Assembly (NCBI GenBank): GCA_007119965.1
Contig: SKOR01000037.1
Location: 1 to 32,594 of the forward strand
Reading direction: 5' to 3'
Source of the DNA: Syntrophomonadaceae bacterium
GTDB lineage: Bacteria > Bacillota > Dethiobacteria > DTU022
Length of the DNA stretch: 32,594 nucleotides
In this document: positions 4,097 to 29,948 of the stretch, piece after piece
Layout: each line of letters starts with the position of its first letter
Position numbering within the stretch: position 1 is the first letter of the stretch
Notes under the pieces: generated by a model
What the model was told of the DNA's origin: nothing
Databases searched by the model: none
What the model saw: only the letters and a program-made list of their open reading frames with translations
Made by a program: the position numbers and the translations under genes

Positions 4097-4127
4097 TTGA
4101 CAAATTTTAATTACGGATCAATAATAG
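4097..4127 (+). promoter_or_regulatory. Promoter of the candidate ncRNA
   Basis: TTGACA (4097-4102) is followed by ATAATA (4121-4126) after 18 bases. Start of transcription would be at about 4131-4134, exactly where the 5' strand of the terminal helix of the RNA candidate begins. Confidence 0.6.
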
Positions 4128-4130
4128 TAC

Positions 4131-4436
4131 CCCAGGTTCCGAGAGACTGGATAGCGAACCAGACCTGGTTTGCAGGGAAGGCCGAAGTTGGTTAAGGGCT
4201 TACCAGGATCCGTGTTAGGGATATTACCTGTAACCAGGCGGCTGTGTGAACCGGGAATTGAAGGCCCCAGGGTCATTAAATTCCGGGCAGGCAGCACGAA
4301 AGAGCAGTAGCGAACTGAGGTTGGGCGAAAGCCATCCGGAGGTGGTGGCGGAAACTCAGCTGGTGAAGGATTCGCGAAGGAATTTCGTCGGGTATGCTAA
4401 AAGGCCTGTTGGAACCTGGCTCTTTATTGGCCAGGC
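4131..4436 (+). ncRNA. Candidate structured non-coding RNA, family unknown
   Basis: CCAGGTTCC (4132-4140) pairs perfectly with GGAACCTGG (4411-4419), closing a domain of about 290 nt in the manner of stand-alone structured RNAs. Inside are local hairpins: CTGG/CCAG (4147-4162), CCTG/CAGG (4164-4176), CTGAG/CTCAG (4315-4359) enclosing a GGC-GAAA-GCC tetraloop stem (4324-4333). The 3' strand CCTGG (4415-4419) can alternatively pair with CCAGG (4431-4435), so the terminal helix competes with a downstream hairpin, as in a switch. It has its own promoter and lacks a long T tract. It shows none of the signature sequences I know for RNase P RNA, tmRNA, SRP RNA or 6S RNA, and no riboswitch class I could match. 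A 70-codon open frame across it (4246-4458) is probably incidental. Confidence 0.5.
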
Positions 4437-4501
4437 ACCGGTAGGGCTATACAACTAATAAACACTCTTATAATCATTATTAAGATATCTTATCTATATC
4501 G

Positions 4502-4531
4502 TTGACAGCGTTAAACAGTCAATGATATAAT
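4502..4531 (+). promoter_or_regulatory. Promoter of the redox operon
   Basis: TTGACA (4502-4507) and a perfect TATAAT (4526-4531) are separated by 18 bases. TTGAC (4502-4506) and GTCAA (4518-4522) form an inverted repeat overlapping the -35 box, so a repressor or activator could bind here. The leader carries AAGGAG (4543-4548) with no start codon close by and a weaker AAGGAATAAGG just before the ATG at 4586. Confidence 0.75.
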
Positions 4532-4585: not shown

Positions 4586-6961
4586 ATGAACAACCATACA
4601 ACGCAGATCGATTCGATTATCAAGCAGCACGACAGCGATCCCGCCAACCTGATCATGATTTTGCAGGATATTCAGGCCCAGTTAAGTTACCTTCCTTCAG
4701 AAACAATAGAGCAAGTAGCAGGACAATTAAACATCCCCCTCTCTCAGATTTACTCAGTATCCACATTTTACAAGTCCTTTTCTTTAAAACCCCGCGGAAA
4801 ACATAAAATTGATGTATGCGAAGGAACCGCCTGCCACATCAGGGGCGCAGGTGTGCTGATGAGCCAGCTTTCGGAAGAGCTCGGTGTTTCTGCCGGCGGA
4901 ACCAGCGAAGACGGCGAGTTTTCATTAAATTCCGTTCACTGTGTCGGAGCCTGTGCTATGGCTCCCGTAGTGGTTATAGACGGGGTTTACCACGGCAGCA
5001 TAAACTCATCAAAGCTGATGAAAGAAGTAAAAAAATGCTGTTCTGCCGAACGGAAGGCTGCCGGCCCGCCCGGGAGCGACGAAGAGACGCCTGCCGTAAT
5101 TACCGATAGGATAGATTCACCCGAAGAGTTATTGGAACTTAATAAAACAATCAGCAAAAGATCACCAGTAGACGAACAAAAGATACTGGTCTGTGCCGGG
5201 ACAGGATGCCTGGCTAAGGGCAGCCTGGCAGTTGCCGGTGCTTTGAGTCGCGAACTTGAAGCCTGTGGCCTCGATATTCCCGTGAAAACCGTGCTCAAAA
5301 AAGTCGGCTGCCAGGGCTTCTGCGAGCAGGGACCGCTGGTAATCATCTCCCCCGATAATCTATTCTACACCGGGGTCACTGTTGATGACGCCCGGGACGT
5401 GATCCGGGATACGGTAATCAATAAGACCATAATAGAAAAACTGCTTTATCACGACCCAAATACGGACAGGGGTATCGACAGGTACGACGAGATACCTTTC
5501 TTTGCCGGGCAGCAGAGGATTGCCCTGCGCCATGTCGGGACAGTTAACCCCCTGGATATATACGACTATATTGTGCACGGCGGTTACAGTGCCCTTTTTA
5601 AAACTCTCTATTCAATGGAACCGGGGCAGGTTATCGATGAAATTGAAAATTCCGGCCTTCGCGGCAGGGGAGGGGGAGGATTCCCCACCGGCAGGAAGTG
5701 GCGGACTACAGCTTCGGTTAAAGCGGATATTCGCTATGTAATCTGTAACGGCGATGAAGGTGACCCGGGGGCGTTTATGGATCGCAGCATTATGGAAGGC
5801 GACCCGCATTCAGTAATTGAGGGAATGATCATCTGCGCCTATGCCGTCGGTTCTTCCCGGGGCTATATATATGTCCGCGAGGAGTATCCGCGGGCCTTAA
5901 AACATCTCCAGGGCGCTATCGACCAGGCCCGCGGAGCGGGCCTGCTGGGCAGTAATATCGGCGGAACCGGCTTTTCTTTTGACATTACCATTAACCGCGG
6001 GACCGGCGCCTTTATCTGCGGCGAATCAACAGCCCTGATGCAGTCAATCGAGGGCAGGGTCGGAGAGCCGCGGGCGAAATATATCCGTTCAGCAGAACGG
6101 GGACTCTACGATCAACCGACTGTTCTCAATAATGTCGAAACCCTGGTCAACATTCCCGCTATTATCGAACATGGAGCAGAATGGTTTGCCGCCACCGGTA
6201 CCCCGGGAAGCCCGGGAACCAAGGTATTTTCGGTAGTCGGCAAGGTTAAAAACACGGGCCTGGTAGAAGTTCCGATGGGGACAACGCTCAGGAGCGTGAT
6301 TTACGACCTCTGCGGAGGCATTTTGGCGGACAGGCAGTTTAAGGCCGTTCAAACAGGAGGCCCCTCGGGCGGCTGCCTGCCTGAAAGCAAATTAGATCTG
6401 CCCGTTGATTTCGACACACTTACCCGCGAAGGTTCGATGATGGGATCCGGCGGGATGATCATAATGGATGAAGATACCTGCATGGTAGATGTAGCCCGTT
6501 ACTTTACTGACTTCTTAACCCAGGAATCCTGCGGAAAATGCGGGGCCTGCAGGATCGGGCTGTCGAGCCTGCTGGCTGTTCTGGAAAAAATCTGCAGGGG
6601 TGAAGGCGCCTCAGGTGATATTGAAGATATTGAAAAACTGCTTGACGTTCTGGAACAGGGATCATTATGCGGGCTTGGAAAGTCTGCCCCAAACCCCGTC
6701 CGCAGCACATTGGCCCACTTCAGGGCGGAATACCTGGCCCATATCGAAGAAAAAAGGTGCCCGGCAGGAGTCTGCAGGGGCCTGATTAATTTTGAAATCA
6801 ACGATTTATGCACCGGCTGCCGGCGCTGTGCCGGGGCCTGTCCTCAAAAAGCAATTCAGGGCGATAAAAAAGAGAAGCATATTATAGACCAACAGCTCTG
6901 CAACCAGTGCGGAATCTGCAAAGCAACCTGTACCTTTGAAGCAGTAAGCATCATTAAGTAA
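4586..6961 (+). CDS. NuoE-NuoF fusion: NADH-oxidoreducing FMN/Fe-S subunit
   Basis: A 791-residue electron-input/output subunit. Residues 1-150 are a NuoE-type thioredoxin-like domain with [2Fe-2S] ligands C78, C83, C119 and C123. Residues 190-275 are a second thioredoxin-like [2Fe-2S] domain (C193, C198, C232, C236). Residues 300-700 are NuoF: the FMN/NADH loop GRGGGGFPTGRKW at 350-362, an SLBB region and the N3-type [4Fe-4S] ligands C639, C642, C645 and C685. The C-terminus adds a 2[4Fe-4S] ferredoxin (C732-C742, C762-C772). NuoF with an extra N-terminal [2Fe-2S] and a C-terminal ferredoxin is the layout of HydB in bifurcating [FeFe]-hydrogenases and NADP-reducing hydrogenase HndC, not respiratory complex I. 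NuoE is normally separate, so the fusion is notable. It starts an operon; the next gene begins 12 bases later. Confidence 0.9.
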   Translation: MNNHTTQIDSIIKQHDSDPANLIMILQDIQAQLSYLPSETIEQVAGQLNIPLSQIYSVSTFYKSFSLKPRGKHKIDVCEGTACHIRGAGVLMSQLSEELGVSAGGTSEDGEFSLNSVHCVGACAMAPVVVIDGVYHGSINSSKLMKEVKKCCSAERKAAGPPGSDEETPAVITDRIDSPEELLELNKTISKRSPVDEQKILVCAGTGCLAKGSLAVAGALSRELEACGLDIPVKTVLKKVGCQGFCEQGPLVIISPDNLFYTGVTVDDARDVIRDTVINKTIIEKLLYHDPNTDRGIDRYDEIPFFAGQQRIALRHVGTVNPLDIYDYIVHGGYSALFKTLYSMEPGQVIDEIENSGLRGRGGGGFPTGRKWRTTASVKADIRYVICNGDEGDPGAFMDRSIMEGDPHSVIEGMIICAYAVGSSRGYIYVREEYPRALKHLQGAIDQARGAGLLGSNIGGTGFSFDITINRGTGAFICGESTALMQSIEGRVGEPRAKYIRSAERGLYDQPTVLNNVETLVNIPAIIEHGAEWFAATGTPGSPGTKVFSVVGKVKNTGLVEVPMGTTLRSVIYDLCGGILADRQFKAVQTGGPSGGCLPESKLDLPVDFDTLTREGSMMGSGGMIIMDEDTCMVDVARYFTDFLTQESCGKCGACRIGLSSLLAVLEKICRGEGASGDIEDIEKLLDVLEQGSLCGLGKSAPNPVRSTLAHFRAEYLAHIEEKRCPAGVCRGLINFEINDLCTGCRRCAGACPQKAIQGDKKEKHIIDQQLCNQCGICKATCTFEAVSIIK

Positions 6962-6973
6962 GAAAGGAAAAAT

Positions 6974-9900
6974 ATGAGCGATAAGGTTAATATAACTGTT
7001 GACGGACGGACAGTAGAAACCGAAAACAGGGTTATGCTTTTACCCATTCTGAACGAACTGGGGATTCAAATCCCGCAGTTGTGCAACCATCCCTCATTAA
7101 CCCCCAGCGGGGCCTGCAGGCTCTGTGTCGTCGAGATAACAAAAAAAGAATGGAACGGCAGCACAAAAATAGTTACCTCCTGCCTCTACCCTGCAGAAGA
7201 CGGCCTGATTGTTTCCACCCGGACGGTAGATGTCTTAAAAACCCGCAGGAGCCTGCTTGAACTCTACCTGGCCCAATGCCCGGAATCAGAAGAGGTCAGG
7301 GCTATGGCCAGGCTTGAGGGGATTGACACCACTGCATTTACGACCCCCGGTGAAGATGATAATAAATGTGTAATGTGCGGCCTGTGTACACGGGTCTGCC
7401 AGGATTTTGGCCCGGGCGCAATATCGACCCTGGGCAGGGGCATCGACAAGCAGGTGGGGCCGGGTCCTGACGGGGTAGCTGACAGCTGCACCGGCTGCCG
7501 GGCCTGCACTTATGTCTGCCCGACCGGCGCAATTCCTTTTGAACAGAAGGAAGGCACGCTAAATATCTGGAACCGCAGCTTTGATATTCCGACCTGCTCT
7601 GTCCAACCTGAACTGTGCAGGGGCTGCGGGCGTTGTGAAGAAGTCTGCCCCTATTCTATCCCGAGGGTTGTGATCTACAAAAACGGCCTCTCAACAGCGC
7701 AGATTTCCCAGGATGCCTGCGTAGGTTGCGGTGTATGCCCCGGTACATGCCCCACGGGGGCGATCAAACAGAAAACAACAGGCGCTCTCACTGATTATGA
7801 ATCGCTGCTCTTTGAAGAAGATATAACCGGAAAAGACCTTGTGTTTGCCTGCCCGCGCTCCCCGATGCCTGCCGCTGCTGATGGGCACGTTGTCAGGGTC
7901 AGCTGTATCGGCAGTATTCACATATCAACACTGCTCTATGCCCTGACTGCGGGCGCAAACAGCGCAGCCTTAGTCTGCAGAGACAGGGCCAGCTGCCCGT
8001 ATTACCGCGGGGGCGATTTGGGCGAGAATAGGTTTGCTGCCGCGCGGGACCTGCTCGAATACTGCGGCCTCGATTCGGACAGTATCGCCCTGCTCACACC
8101 GAATATGGGACAGGACGGCCCTTTCAGGGCCTGGCAGGAATACAGGAAGCCGTTGCAGGGGCGCACCCCTGTTTTAGAGTCATTTTATAAACCTGAAAAG
8201 CGCCCTGTCCCGGGTATGGACCTGGCGCTTGATATTACAGCCTGGTTGAAGAGCAGGCCTGAACTTAAAGTTAAGCTGCCTGCTGCGGTTACAGGCATGT
8301 TTACCGTAGCGTCAGCAGACGATGACGCACCGGTCCTTTACCTGGACAGACTGCCTGAGCTGCATATCCTGATGTCCCTGACCATGGAAGAGCCTGTGGT
8401 GTTAAATATACTGGCGGAAGCGGCGCGCGTTTTGGAAAACAGGGGTATTGCTGTGCGCTGCGCAGCGGCTGAAAAAGAACTGAAAGAATTCAGGGGCCGG
8501 CAAATAATTACTTTTGACTCCGGAGTTCCGGCAGAGCTTCCTGAAGGCACTTCCCCGGTTACGCTTAATAGCATTGCCGGTTTAACCGCTGACGGCAGCG
8601 AAGAGCGGTTCTATTTTACACTCAGCCCTAAAACACGCAAAAGTTTGCTTGATGATTACATAAACAGCAGCGGCGGACAGCCGATTTTATGCGCCACTGC
8701 CGAGCATTACCTGCAGTATGCCCTTCTACTGCGGCAGGGTACCTGGATGCAGTCCCTGGCTGAAAAACCGAAATTACTGCTAAGTACTGCCGCATCTGTT
8801 GAACCAAAGGCAGCCGGAAAGCAGGCCAGCCTGCGCCGGATTAAGAACCACCCGATTCTCCCTCCGCTGGAAGGAGTTCAATTGGAGTTTACTTTTAATG
8901 GCCGAACATACCTGGCCAGGAAAGGTGAAGTGATCACCTCTGCCCTTTACGCTGCCGGTATTACCGTTTTCGGACACCACCACCGCGATGGAGGGGCCCA
9001 GGGCGTTTACTGCGTAAACGGCCAGTGTTCACAGTGCATGGTTGTTGCCGACGGAAAACCGGTCAAAGGGTGCATGACGCCCGTAACACCCGGTATGGCT
9101 GTGCTGAGCGCTGAAGGACCCCCTGTTCTGTCCGATGTCGAAAATCCCCGGGAGATGACTGTAGAGCCTGAAACGGTGCAGGTTGATGTATTAATAATCG
9201 GAGGCGGCCCGGCAGGAATCAGCGCAGGGATTGAACTGGGCAACGCCGGCGTTAAAGTTTTAATCATAGATGATAAGCAGGAGCTTGGCGGGAAACTGAG
9301 CCTGCAGACCCATAACTTTTTCGGTTCTGTTGCCGACTGCTATGCGGGGGCCCGCGGGGTCGAAATCGGCCATATCCTGTCCGGTGACCTGTGTAAACTG
9401 CCGACAATCGATATCTTGCTTAATTCAACTGTAGTCGGTGTTTTCAGTGACGGTAAATTCGGCGTCGCCGGCAGCGGCACTTACAAACTGGTTGAAGCGA
9501 AAAAGGTCCTCTTTTCAACAGGGGCAAGGGAGAAGAGCCTTGCTTTTCCGGGAGCTGACCTGGCCGGTGTATATGGTGCAGGCGCTTTTCAAACCCTGGT
9601 CAACAGAGACCTGGTCAAGTGCGCACAGAGGCTCTTTATTATCGGCGGCGGTAACGTCGGCCTGATCGGTGCATATCATGCCCTCCAGGCAGGAATCGAT
9701 GTTGTCGGCCTCGTTGAGGCCCTGCCCAGGTGTGGGGGCTACAAGGTCCATGAAGATAAAATCAGGCGTCTCGGCGTTCCTGTTATGACATCGCACACTG
9801 TGCTGCGCATAGAAGGCGAAGAGAATGTGGAAAGAGTGGTTATCGCTGCAATTGACGATAAATTTATACCGATCGCCGGAACAGAACGCACATTTGAGGT

Positions 9901-10933
9901 CGATACTGTATTAATGGCTGTCGGTTTAAGTCCTGTGAACGAACTGCTCCAAAAAGCGCAGGAATACGGTATCGATACATACGCCGCCGGGGATGCCATG
10001 GAAATTGCAGAGGCCTCTGCTGCCATATTCTCAGGAAAAATAATTGGTCGCAGAATTGCCCAGGATATGGGAATTGATCTTCCCGTGCCCAGTGACTGGG
10101 AAGCATTCGGCGATACATTGAAGCAGCATTCTGCTGAAAGCAAACCGTTCACAGCGGAAGATTCGGAGGCTCCCGTATACCCGCTAATTCGCTGCATGCA
10201 GGAAATTCCCTGCAATCCATGTATCGAAGCATGCCCTAACAAATGTATTACGATGCCAGGTTCGATTCTGAGCCTGCCCGAGTATGGTGATCAGTGCATC
10301 GGCTGCGGGGAATGTGTCCTGGCCTGCCCGGGCCTGGCGATCAACCTGGTTATCAATGATTACGATCCCGACCGGGAAAAATCCCTGCTGGTAATGCCCT
10401 ACGAGTTTGTTAATGATATTATTCCCCTGGGCCGCGAAGTTACCACCACCGACATGGAGGGTAACGTAGTCGGCAAAGGGAAGGTTATCGCCTATAAAGA
10501 ACGGGAATCTCAGAACAGCAGGAGACTGCTGCTATTAGAGGTGCCTTATGAGCATAAGCTGCAGGTGGCAGGGTTTATGATCCGTGAAATTGAAGAAGGC
10601 CTTCCGCTCGACCCTGCACCAGATCTTGATGAAGACCCGATTATTTGCCGCTGCGAAAGGATCCGGAAAAGTGAAATTGTTCAGGCCATTCGCTCGGGAG
10701 TGCGTGATATGAACCAGCTAAAAGCTGCTGTCCGAGCCGGTCTTGGCGGTTGTAACGGCAAAACCTGCAACGATCTGATCCTGCGTTTGTACAGGGAGGA
10801 AGGCATTCCACTTTCTGAAGTAACCATGCCTACGCACAGGCCCCTGGTTGCCGAGGTTCATCTCGGTGATTTCATTGCCGGTGGAGGACCTGATCGGGCA
10901 GAAGGAACAGAGGAGGCTGACAATGCCGGTTAA
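6974..10933 (+). CDS. NuoG-like / MvhD-like / proline dehydrogenase alpha-like fusion flavoprotein
   Basis: A 1319-residue electron-transfer protein. In order: NuoG-type [2Fe-2S] ferredoxin (C37, C48, C51, C70); two 2[4Fe-4S] modules (C132-C142 with C172-C182, and C215-C225 with C249-C259); an MvhD/FlpD-like region about 288-376 with Cys at 293, 311, 335 and 341; a poorly recognisable linker about 377-620; a second [2Fe-2S] domain (C680, C685, C688, C700) of the kind fused to sarcosine oxidase and dye-linked proline dehydrogenase alpha subunits; an FAD/NAD disulfide-reductase fold (GGGPAG at 743-748, second Rossmann GGGNVG at 891-896); a 2[4Fe-4S] ferredoxin (C1080-C1091, C1108-C1118); and a BFD-like [2Fe-2S] C-terminus (C1225, C1227, C1260, C1265). 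The usual NuoG His-Cys cluster between residues 95 and 125 looks lost: one Cys remains. RBS AGAAAGG precedes ATG 6974. It overlaps the next gene by 11 bases. The substrate is inferred, not seen. Confidence 0.85.
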   Translation: MSDKVNITVDGRTVETENRVMLLPILNELGIQIPQLCNHPSLTPSGACRLCVVEITKKEWNGSTKIVTSCLYPAEDGLIVSTRTVDVLKTRRSLLELYLAQCPESEEVRAMARLEGIDTTAFTTPGEDDNKCVMCGLCTRVCQDFGPGAISTLGRGIDKQVGPGPDGVADSCTGCRACTYVCPTGAIPFEQKEGTLNIWNRSFDIPTCSVQPELCRGCGRCEEVCPYSIPRVVIYKNGLSTAQISQDACVGCGVCPGTCPTGAIKQKTTGALTDYESLLFEEDITGKDLVFACPRSPMPAAADGHVVRVSCIGSIHISTLLYALTAGANSAALVCRDRASCPYYRGGDLGENRFAAARDLLEYCGLDSDSIALLTPNMGQDGPFRAWQEYRKPLQGRTPVLESFYKPEKRPVPGMDLALDITAWLKSRPELKVKLPAAVTGMFTVASADDDAPVLYLDRLPELHILMSLTMEEPVVLNILAEAARVLENRGIAVRCAAAEKELKEFRGRQIITFDSGVPAELPEGTSPVTLNSIAGLTADGSEERFYFTLSPKTRKSLLDDYINSSGGQPILCATAEHYLQYALLLRQGTWMQSLAEKPKLLLSTAASVEPKAAGKQASLRRIKNHPILPPLEGVQLEFTFNGRTYLARKGEVITSALYAAGITVFGHHHRDGGAQGVYCVNGQCSQCMVVADGKPVKGCMTPVTPGMAVLSAEGPPVLSDVENPREMTVEPETVQVDVLIIGGGPAGISAGIELGNAGVKVLIIDDKQELGGKLSLQTHNFFGSVADCYAGARGVEIGHILSGDLCKLPTIDILLNSTVVGVFSDGKFGVAGSGTYKLVEAKKVLFSTGAREKSLAFPGADLAGVYGAGAFQTLVNRDLVKCAQRLFIIGGGNVGLIGAYHALQAGIDVVGLVEALPRCGGYKVHEDKIRRLGVPVMTSHTVLRIEGEENVERVVIAAIDDKFIPIAGTERTFEVDTVLMAVGLSPVNELLQKAQEYGIDTYAAGDAMEIAEASAAIFSGKIIGRRIAQDMGIDLPVPSDWEAFGDTLKQHSAESKPFTAEDSEAPVYPLIRCMQEIPCNPCIEACPNKCITMPGSILSLPEYGDQCIGCGECVLACPGLAINLVINDYDPDREKSLLVMPYEFVNDIIPLGREVTTTDMEGNVVGKGKVIAYKERESQNSRRLLLLEVPYEHKLQVAGFMIREIEEGLPLDPAPDLDEDPIICRCERIRKSEIVQAIRSGVRDMNQLKAAVRAGLGGCNGKTCNDLILRLYREEGIPLSEVTMPTHRPLVAEVHLGDFIAGGGPDRAEGTEEADNAG

Positions 10934-29684: not shown

Positions 29685-29948
29685 AAATAAAAAACTTCCG
29701 CCTAAGAGACGAAAGTATATTTCCGTGGTACCACTCTTCTTAGCAGCATAAAATCTACCGCCCACTCTTTATAATAACGGAAGTCTCCGGCCAGGCCTAT
29801 TTTTGATCTAACCCGATCAATTTCGGTTGGCGGCTAACGGAGGAGTTCACAGTATTTATCATGCCGCCTCGCACCTAACGGCGGCTCTCTGTTAATGACG
29901 CATCCTGCTAATAGTTCCGATCATTGCCTTTGTTGGTATTCAGCTTTT
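29685..29948 (-). promoter_or_regulatory. Leucine-specific T-box leader of leuA
   Basis: On the minus strand the T-box core AAGAAGAGTGGTACCACGG is at 29741-29723. Stem I has ACAGAGAGCCGCC and the GGTGCGAGGCGG distal block, then GAACTCC with CTC (29845-29843) in the specifier position, a leucine codon read by tRNA-Leu(GAG). Past the antiterminator region, CTAAGA and TCTTAG arms and a T6 tract near 29690 form the terminator. Uncharged tRNA-Leu should stabilise the antiterminator and allow leuA transcription. Confidence 0.9.

Follow-up and report, generated by a model that had tools for sequence, protein, structure and literature searches.

A family of standalone structured RNAs in Bacillota with an invariant G.G mismatch in the terminal helix and a putative protein partner

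Organization of the locus

The window, i.e. the whole stretch of DNA analysed here (32,594 nucleotides of contig SKOR01000037.1, from a Syntrophomonadaceae bacterium of the class Dethiobacteria), contains on its forward strand a structured element at positions 4132 to 4419, preceded by genes for a class-III aminotransferase and an aldehyde dehydrogenase and followed by a redox operon that includes a pyrroline-5-carboxylate reductase gene. The first gene of this operon (4586 to 6961, forward strand) encodes a fusion of NuoE with a NuoF-like protein and is a neighbour lying outside the element, in agreement with the first-pass annotation, which had placed the element directly before a redox operon. 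We infer that this copy, designated type A below, arose by duplication and came to lie between genes that would fit ornithine/proline breakdown, a position from which cis control need not follow.

The operon (4586 to 10933) encodes two large redox fusions, a NuoE-NuoF-ferredoxin protein of 791 aa and a ferredoxin/FAD protein of 1319 aa, together with an FAD oxidoreductase and the pyrroline-5-carboxylate reductase, and is perhaps a proline-linked electron-transfer system. Its separate, perfect promoter (TTGACA-18-TATAAT, 4502 to 4531, forward strand) is embedded in an inverted repeat, ATATCgTTGACAG ... CAGTCAAtGATAT (4497 to 4529), which resembles repeats in several relatives and is likely a repressor operator. 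The window also holds a T-box leader on the reverse strand at 29702 to 29933 (RF00230, 121.6 bits).

Ends, promoter, and coding potential of the element

The two ends of the element are perfectly complementary, CCAGGTTCC (4132 to 4140) pairing with GGAACCTGG (4411 to 4419) over an end-to-end span of exactly 288 nt, which confirms the nine terminal base pairs described at first pass. Upstream lies a promoter on the same strand (4097 to 4125) composed of TTGACA (4097 to 4102), a 17-nt spacer, and AATAAT (4120 to 4125), which matches the consensus at 11 of 12 positions and ends 6 nt 5' of the helix; from its position the transcript start, and hence the RNA 5' end, is placed at the terminal helix, as the first-pass annotation had proposed. 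The 3' end is set by the terminal helix and by the U-rich tail that follows it (4420 to 4428, forward strand), a probable transcript end whose sequence, typically TTTTATTATGTAC in relatives, has a degenerate form in the window copy. The predicted fold of the region outperforms 100 of 100 dinucleotide shuffles (z -2.7).

An open reading frame of 70 aa (4246 to 4458, forward strand) overlaps the element, and its conservation as protein would have spoken against an RNA. The frame has no Pfam match, and of 19 homologues 18 carry in-frame stops and 16 a net frame change; it encodes no conserved protein, and the RNA reading survived this test. Judged from its sequence, the stretch 4132 to 4419 is a gene for a noncoding RNA, is served by a sigma-A-type promoter of its own, and belongs to a new RNA family as its type A.

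Homologues and conserved fold

A DNA search found the element in 19 of 60 relatives, several of which carry more than one copy, and the oriented copies can be aligned from the -35 box through to the 3' end. They split into two types: type A, of 276 to 292 nt, with the promoter block GATCAATAAT, and type B, of 304 to 313 nt, with the extended -10 sequence TGnTATTATA. Type B is a paralogue of type A with the same fold, and its two neighbouring genes are both on the other strand.

Covariation analysis, a check suggested at first pass, gave strong covariation across the 20 type-A homologues (alignment A4): 70 pairs with 93.8% of cells paired, two-sided changes in 32 of the 70 pairs, and 91 two-sided cells against a shuffled mean of 29.3, with 0 of 500 shuffles equalling the alignment on any measure. 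When the partners were slid by 1 to 3 columns, pairing fell to 26 to 50%. The 16 type-B sequences (alignment A5) support 80 pairs, of which 28 are two-sided, with 96.6% of cells paired. In both types the layout is the same: a terminal helix (P1) encloses arms P2 and P3 and, on the 3' side, the large arm P4.

In the window copy (forward strand throughout), P1 is formed by a 5' strand, CCAGGTTCCGAGAG (4132 to 4145), and a 3' strand, CTGTTGGAACCTGG (4406 to 4419). P2 (4163 to 4239) is closed by helix 4163-4169/4233-4239, with two-sided changes in 7 of its 7 pairs, and P3 (4242 to 4294) comprises helices 4242-4244/4292-4294 and 4252-4254/4282-4284 with a hairpin at 4264-4267/4271-4274. P4 (4297 to 4387), the best conserved interior domain, contains helices 4297-4300/4384-4387, 4310-4316/4368-4375, and 4319-4325/4355-4361 and a hairpin at 4331-4337/4342-4349. 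The GNRA-capped hairpin of the first-pass annotation, GGGCGAAAGCC (4323 to 4333), does exist in the window sequence, but its pairs are not kept among homologues, and its right arm pairs with GGTGGTGGC in the conserved fold.

Relationship to the downstream operon

The same annotation had described the terminal helix as switch-like, its 3' strand being able to pair instead with a downstream CCAGG, and had implied cis control of the redox operon. Such a leader, either a riboswitch or an attenuator of a redox/proline operon in which the helix switches against a downstream strand, would agree with the arrangement at most type-A loci, where RNA and operon share a strand and are separated by 70 to 253 nt, and with the presence of CCAGG downstream of the RNA in the window. 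While the alternative pairing can be drawn for the window, the competitor strand is found in only 2 of 20 type-A sequences (one of which is the window copy), and the helix itself is kept throughout; the conserved alternative pairing expected of a riboswitch or attenuator was thus not found, and the switch-like interpretation of the helix was dropped.

The promoters point in the same direction. In ten genomes the RNA is followed by the NuoE/F-type operon (cluster c7), and in 10 of 10 a perfect TTGACA-17/18-TATAAT promoter (12 of 12 consensus matches) lies between the two. Furthermore, the operon behind the RNA varies by genome, being either c7-c8 or c6-c13, the latter beginning with pyrroline-5-carboxylate reductase (c6), and type B, which folds in the same way, runs antisense to the genes around it. 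Since the operon has a separate promoter, the downstream operons vary, and type B is antisense, the RNA is most simply an independent gene; a leader was rejected on this sequence test, and we regard cis control of the operon as very improbable.

The terminal helix

Across 72 distinct RNAs of the family, P1 is paired almost throughout and carries a single G.G mismatch in 72 of 72 (G4143 and its partner G4408 in the window copy), with a G.U pair close to it, likewise in 72 of 72 (G4141 with T4410). The core of the helix reads 5' CCGAGAG and 3' GGUUGUC, with the mismatch held between fixed pairs. The outer pairs covary, pair 1 occurring as C-G, A-U, or G-C, pair 5 as G-C or A-U, and pair 7 as U-A or C-G. 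That the outer part varies and the inner part is fixed in sequence suggests that P1 is recognized by a protein.

Distribution of the family

The type-A covariance model (R1) detected the RNA in 44 of the 97 genomes of the class, and a pattern combining promoter and 5' motif in 55 of 97, the union of the two being 58. Members from families other than that of the window have in common the promoter, a 5' end of NAGRTYCCGAGAGR, a 3' end of GGYCTGTTGGR, and the U-rich tail, and differ in their interiors; similarity clustering separates several architectures, and several RNA types may occur within one genome. The window copy itself displays P1 as CCGAGAG/CTGTTGG with the G.G mismatch, the promoter just upstream, and the U-rich tail in degenerate form.

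Beyond the class, scans with the covariance model and the motifs place members in three further families of the phylum, and motif scans of a 398-genome phylum sample found members outside the class only in families f40 and f54. Nothing similar was found in plasmid and phage collections. A scan of 85,000 named genomes gave eight further matches, in Nitrospira, Woesearchaeota, and others, which lie outside the family and were dismissed as chance matches by reading and profile search. The genomes are mostly draft metagenome assemblies, and the named relatives are mostly metagenome assemblies labelled 'Syntrophomonadaceae' or Bacillota; judging by sample names, many of them probably come from soda-lake sediment.

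Comparison with known RNAs

The window was compared with Rfam 15, as suggested at first pass, and gave no match at gathering score; relaxing E to 10 returned unrelated chance matches only. Members from several families, distant ones included, likewise had no gathering-score match, and for three of the members searched relaxed E also gave only chance-level matches. We found no description of such an RNA in the open-licence full-text literature. Together with the strong covariation, the lack of a match in Rfam 15 bears out the original designation of the element as an unassigned structured RNA.

Several known RNAs have a similar length, a standalone promoter, and a terminal helix, and the element could in principle be a strongly diverged 6S RNA, RNase P RNA, OLE RNA, or other Rfam family. 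6S RNA is a standalone RNA with its own promoter and paired 5' and 3' ends, sometimes present as paralogous copies, all of which applies to the new RNA; the latter, however, is multi-armed and has no 6S match, and true 6S genes (RF00013) are found separately in 44 of 50 relatives, including contig C34 of the window's genome (G000). RNase P RNA (RF00010) is also encoded separately, in 27 of 30 relatives, including G000 contig C87. OLE RNA, which occurs in anaerobic or alkaliphilic Bacillota, is likewise structured and standalone and probably acts with protein partners. The new RNA resembles it in being a standalone structured RNA of Bacillota with a putative protein partner, but is approximately half its length, has other neighbour genes, and lacks an Rfam match. 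GOLLD, ROOL, and OLE RNAs are reported to form homo-oligomeric complexes (PMC12286853). Like GOLLD and ROOL, the new RNA is a large, ornate bacterial RNA; unlike them, it is chromosomal, often syntenic with hpt, tied to one protein, and without an Rfam match. Given that members of several families have no Rfam match and that 6S and RNase P RNAs exist as separate genes in the same genomes, we give almost no credence to a diverged known RNA. As far as sequence comparison can place it, the family matches nothing in Rfam 15 and belongs, at the broadest level, with standalone structured RNAs such as OLE.

Association with the k0 protein

In families f1 (type B), f5, f6, f7, f8, f40, and f54, the RNA adjoins, on the opposite strand, a gene pair consisting of hpt and a gene for a protein referred to here as k0, and this site flanking the hpt-k0 operon looks ancestral. 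The N-terminus of k0 is a cytidylate-kinase-like domain (PF13189). Its C-terminal domain is strongly conserved, with motifs including PDFYLP and E.TTQ, and shows a weak profile similarity to the phage T7 endonuclease I family: three diverged k0 homologues have sub-threshold matches to PF05367 (phage endonuclease I; E 6e-5, 0.02, and 0.04), and comparison with PDB entry 3cae (T7 endonuclease I) gave E 0.015. The k0 domain differs from that family in being fused to a kinase-like domain, in scoring below the Pfam cut-off, and in having ELTT where the usual motif is ExK, and we describe it only hesitantly as endonuclease-I-like. An AlphaFold2 model of k0 (mean pLDDT 44) was too poor for a fold search.

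k0 was found in 56 of the 97 genomes of the class. Loci were inspected in six k0 genomes in which the RNA had not been detected, revealing the RNA in three and its 3' end at a contig end in a fourth. With these four genomes scored as carriers, which they became only after inspection of the k0 locus, 54 of the 97 genomes have both RNA and k0, 8 the RNA only, 2 k0 only, and 33 neither (Fisher 5e-16, phylogeny ignored). The corresponding counts before inspection were 50, 8, 6, and 33 (Fisher 1.6e-12, phylogeny ignored), and by genus they are 26, 2, 1, and 19 (Fisher 3e-10, phylogeny ignored). Three genomes that are at least 96% complete (G010, G013, and G078) have the RNA without a k0 match; contig ends near the site may explain the missing k0 in G010 and G078, though not clearly in G013. 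Since k0 stands beside the RNA at the ancestral site, part of this co-occurrence could reflect linked inheritance. Linkage alone would not readily explain why type-A copies, which are unlinked to k0, are also mostly absent from genomes without k0.

Contig C71 of the window's genome ends at k0 and hpt, so that the type-B site of this genome falls outside the assembly. Contigs often end at or close to the junction of hpt and the RNA (e.g. G000:C71, G061:C76, G085:C24, and G018:C96), perhaps due to the RNA being a repeat within the genome.

Homologues of k0 outside the class occur in families f18, f38, f69, and f83. Three f18 genomes have, in the gap upstream of k0 and on the opposite strand, a conserved element of 330 to 332 nt with the ends AAGCTCCAAGGA...TTCGTTGGRGCCTT, a T-rich tail, and a promoter with 10 of 12 consensus matches (scored in two genomes). 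Its P1 keeps the G.G mismatch, and three neighbouring pairs have changed (G.U to A-U, A-U to G-C, and G-C to A-U). Applied to Markov-shuffled loci, the same scan gave an equally good match in 0 of 20 repeats. k0 alone had predicted a diverged candidate RNA in another lineage, and the prediction held in f18; no RNA with the motif was recognized near the k0 homologues of f38, f69, and f83.

Proposed function

We propose, with a probability of roughly 0.6, that this is a new standalone RNA that acts in trans and forms the RNA component of a ribonucleoprotein. The RNA would be abundant, as its strong promoter implies, and its closed ends would protect it; P1 with its G.G mismatch would be the handle by which a protein binds, k0 would be the most likely, putative partner of that handle, and the variable arms would determine the role of each paralogue. 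More tentatively, and at somewhat less than even odds, we envisage a previously unknown ribonucleoprotein system in which fast-evolving RNAs, several paralogues to a genome, share one fixed G.G handle and an obligate kinase-endonuclease-like partner, encoded next to hpt in a section of the Bacillota.

The nearly obligate pairing with a kinase-nuclease-like protein, and interiors that change fast around a fixed handle, could also be expected if the RNA restrained or guided a k0 nuclease, as the inhibitor or guide of a defence or toxin-antitoxin-like pair. We consider this unlikely, as stable chromosomal synteny with hpt across several families looks like housekeeping, several unlinked RNA copies exist per k0 gene, and defence genes were not noticed around the RNA in the neighbourhoods inspected. 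The RNA could also regulate the hpt-k0 operon as an antisense RNA with copies elsewhere, which would account for its place opposite to and flanking hpt-k0 at the ancestral site. This we judge decidedly unlikely, given that the RNA lies mostly beside genes and not across them, the type-A copy has no antisense partner, and the conserved multi-arm fold is unlike that of simple antisense RNAs.

New families of large structured RNAs usually mark an unknown cellular function. For the family described here, the recognition-like motif, several architectures, a strong candidate partner, and one prediction that held make the biochemistry directly testable.

Additional observations

A second, more distant RNA copy is present in the window's genome (G000:C57, 2244 to 2557; locus L181), between a beta-lactamase-family gene (PF00144) and a response-regulator/histidine-kinase pair. 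At two other loci (L193, 3953 to 4559, and L250, 1537 to 2154), two different family RNAs stand in tandem beside tRNA genes. At locus L127 (916 to 1987; G005:C72), a HepT/MntA toxin-antitoxin cassette is found at the 3' end of a type-B RNA, bounded by a 34-nt direct repeat of that 3' end and with a PIN-domain-like gene beyond; the cassette is placed as if it had integrated at an att-like site.
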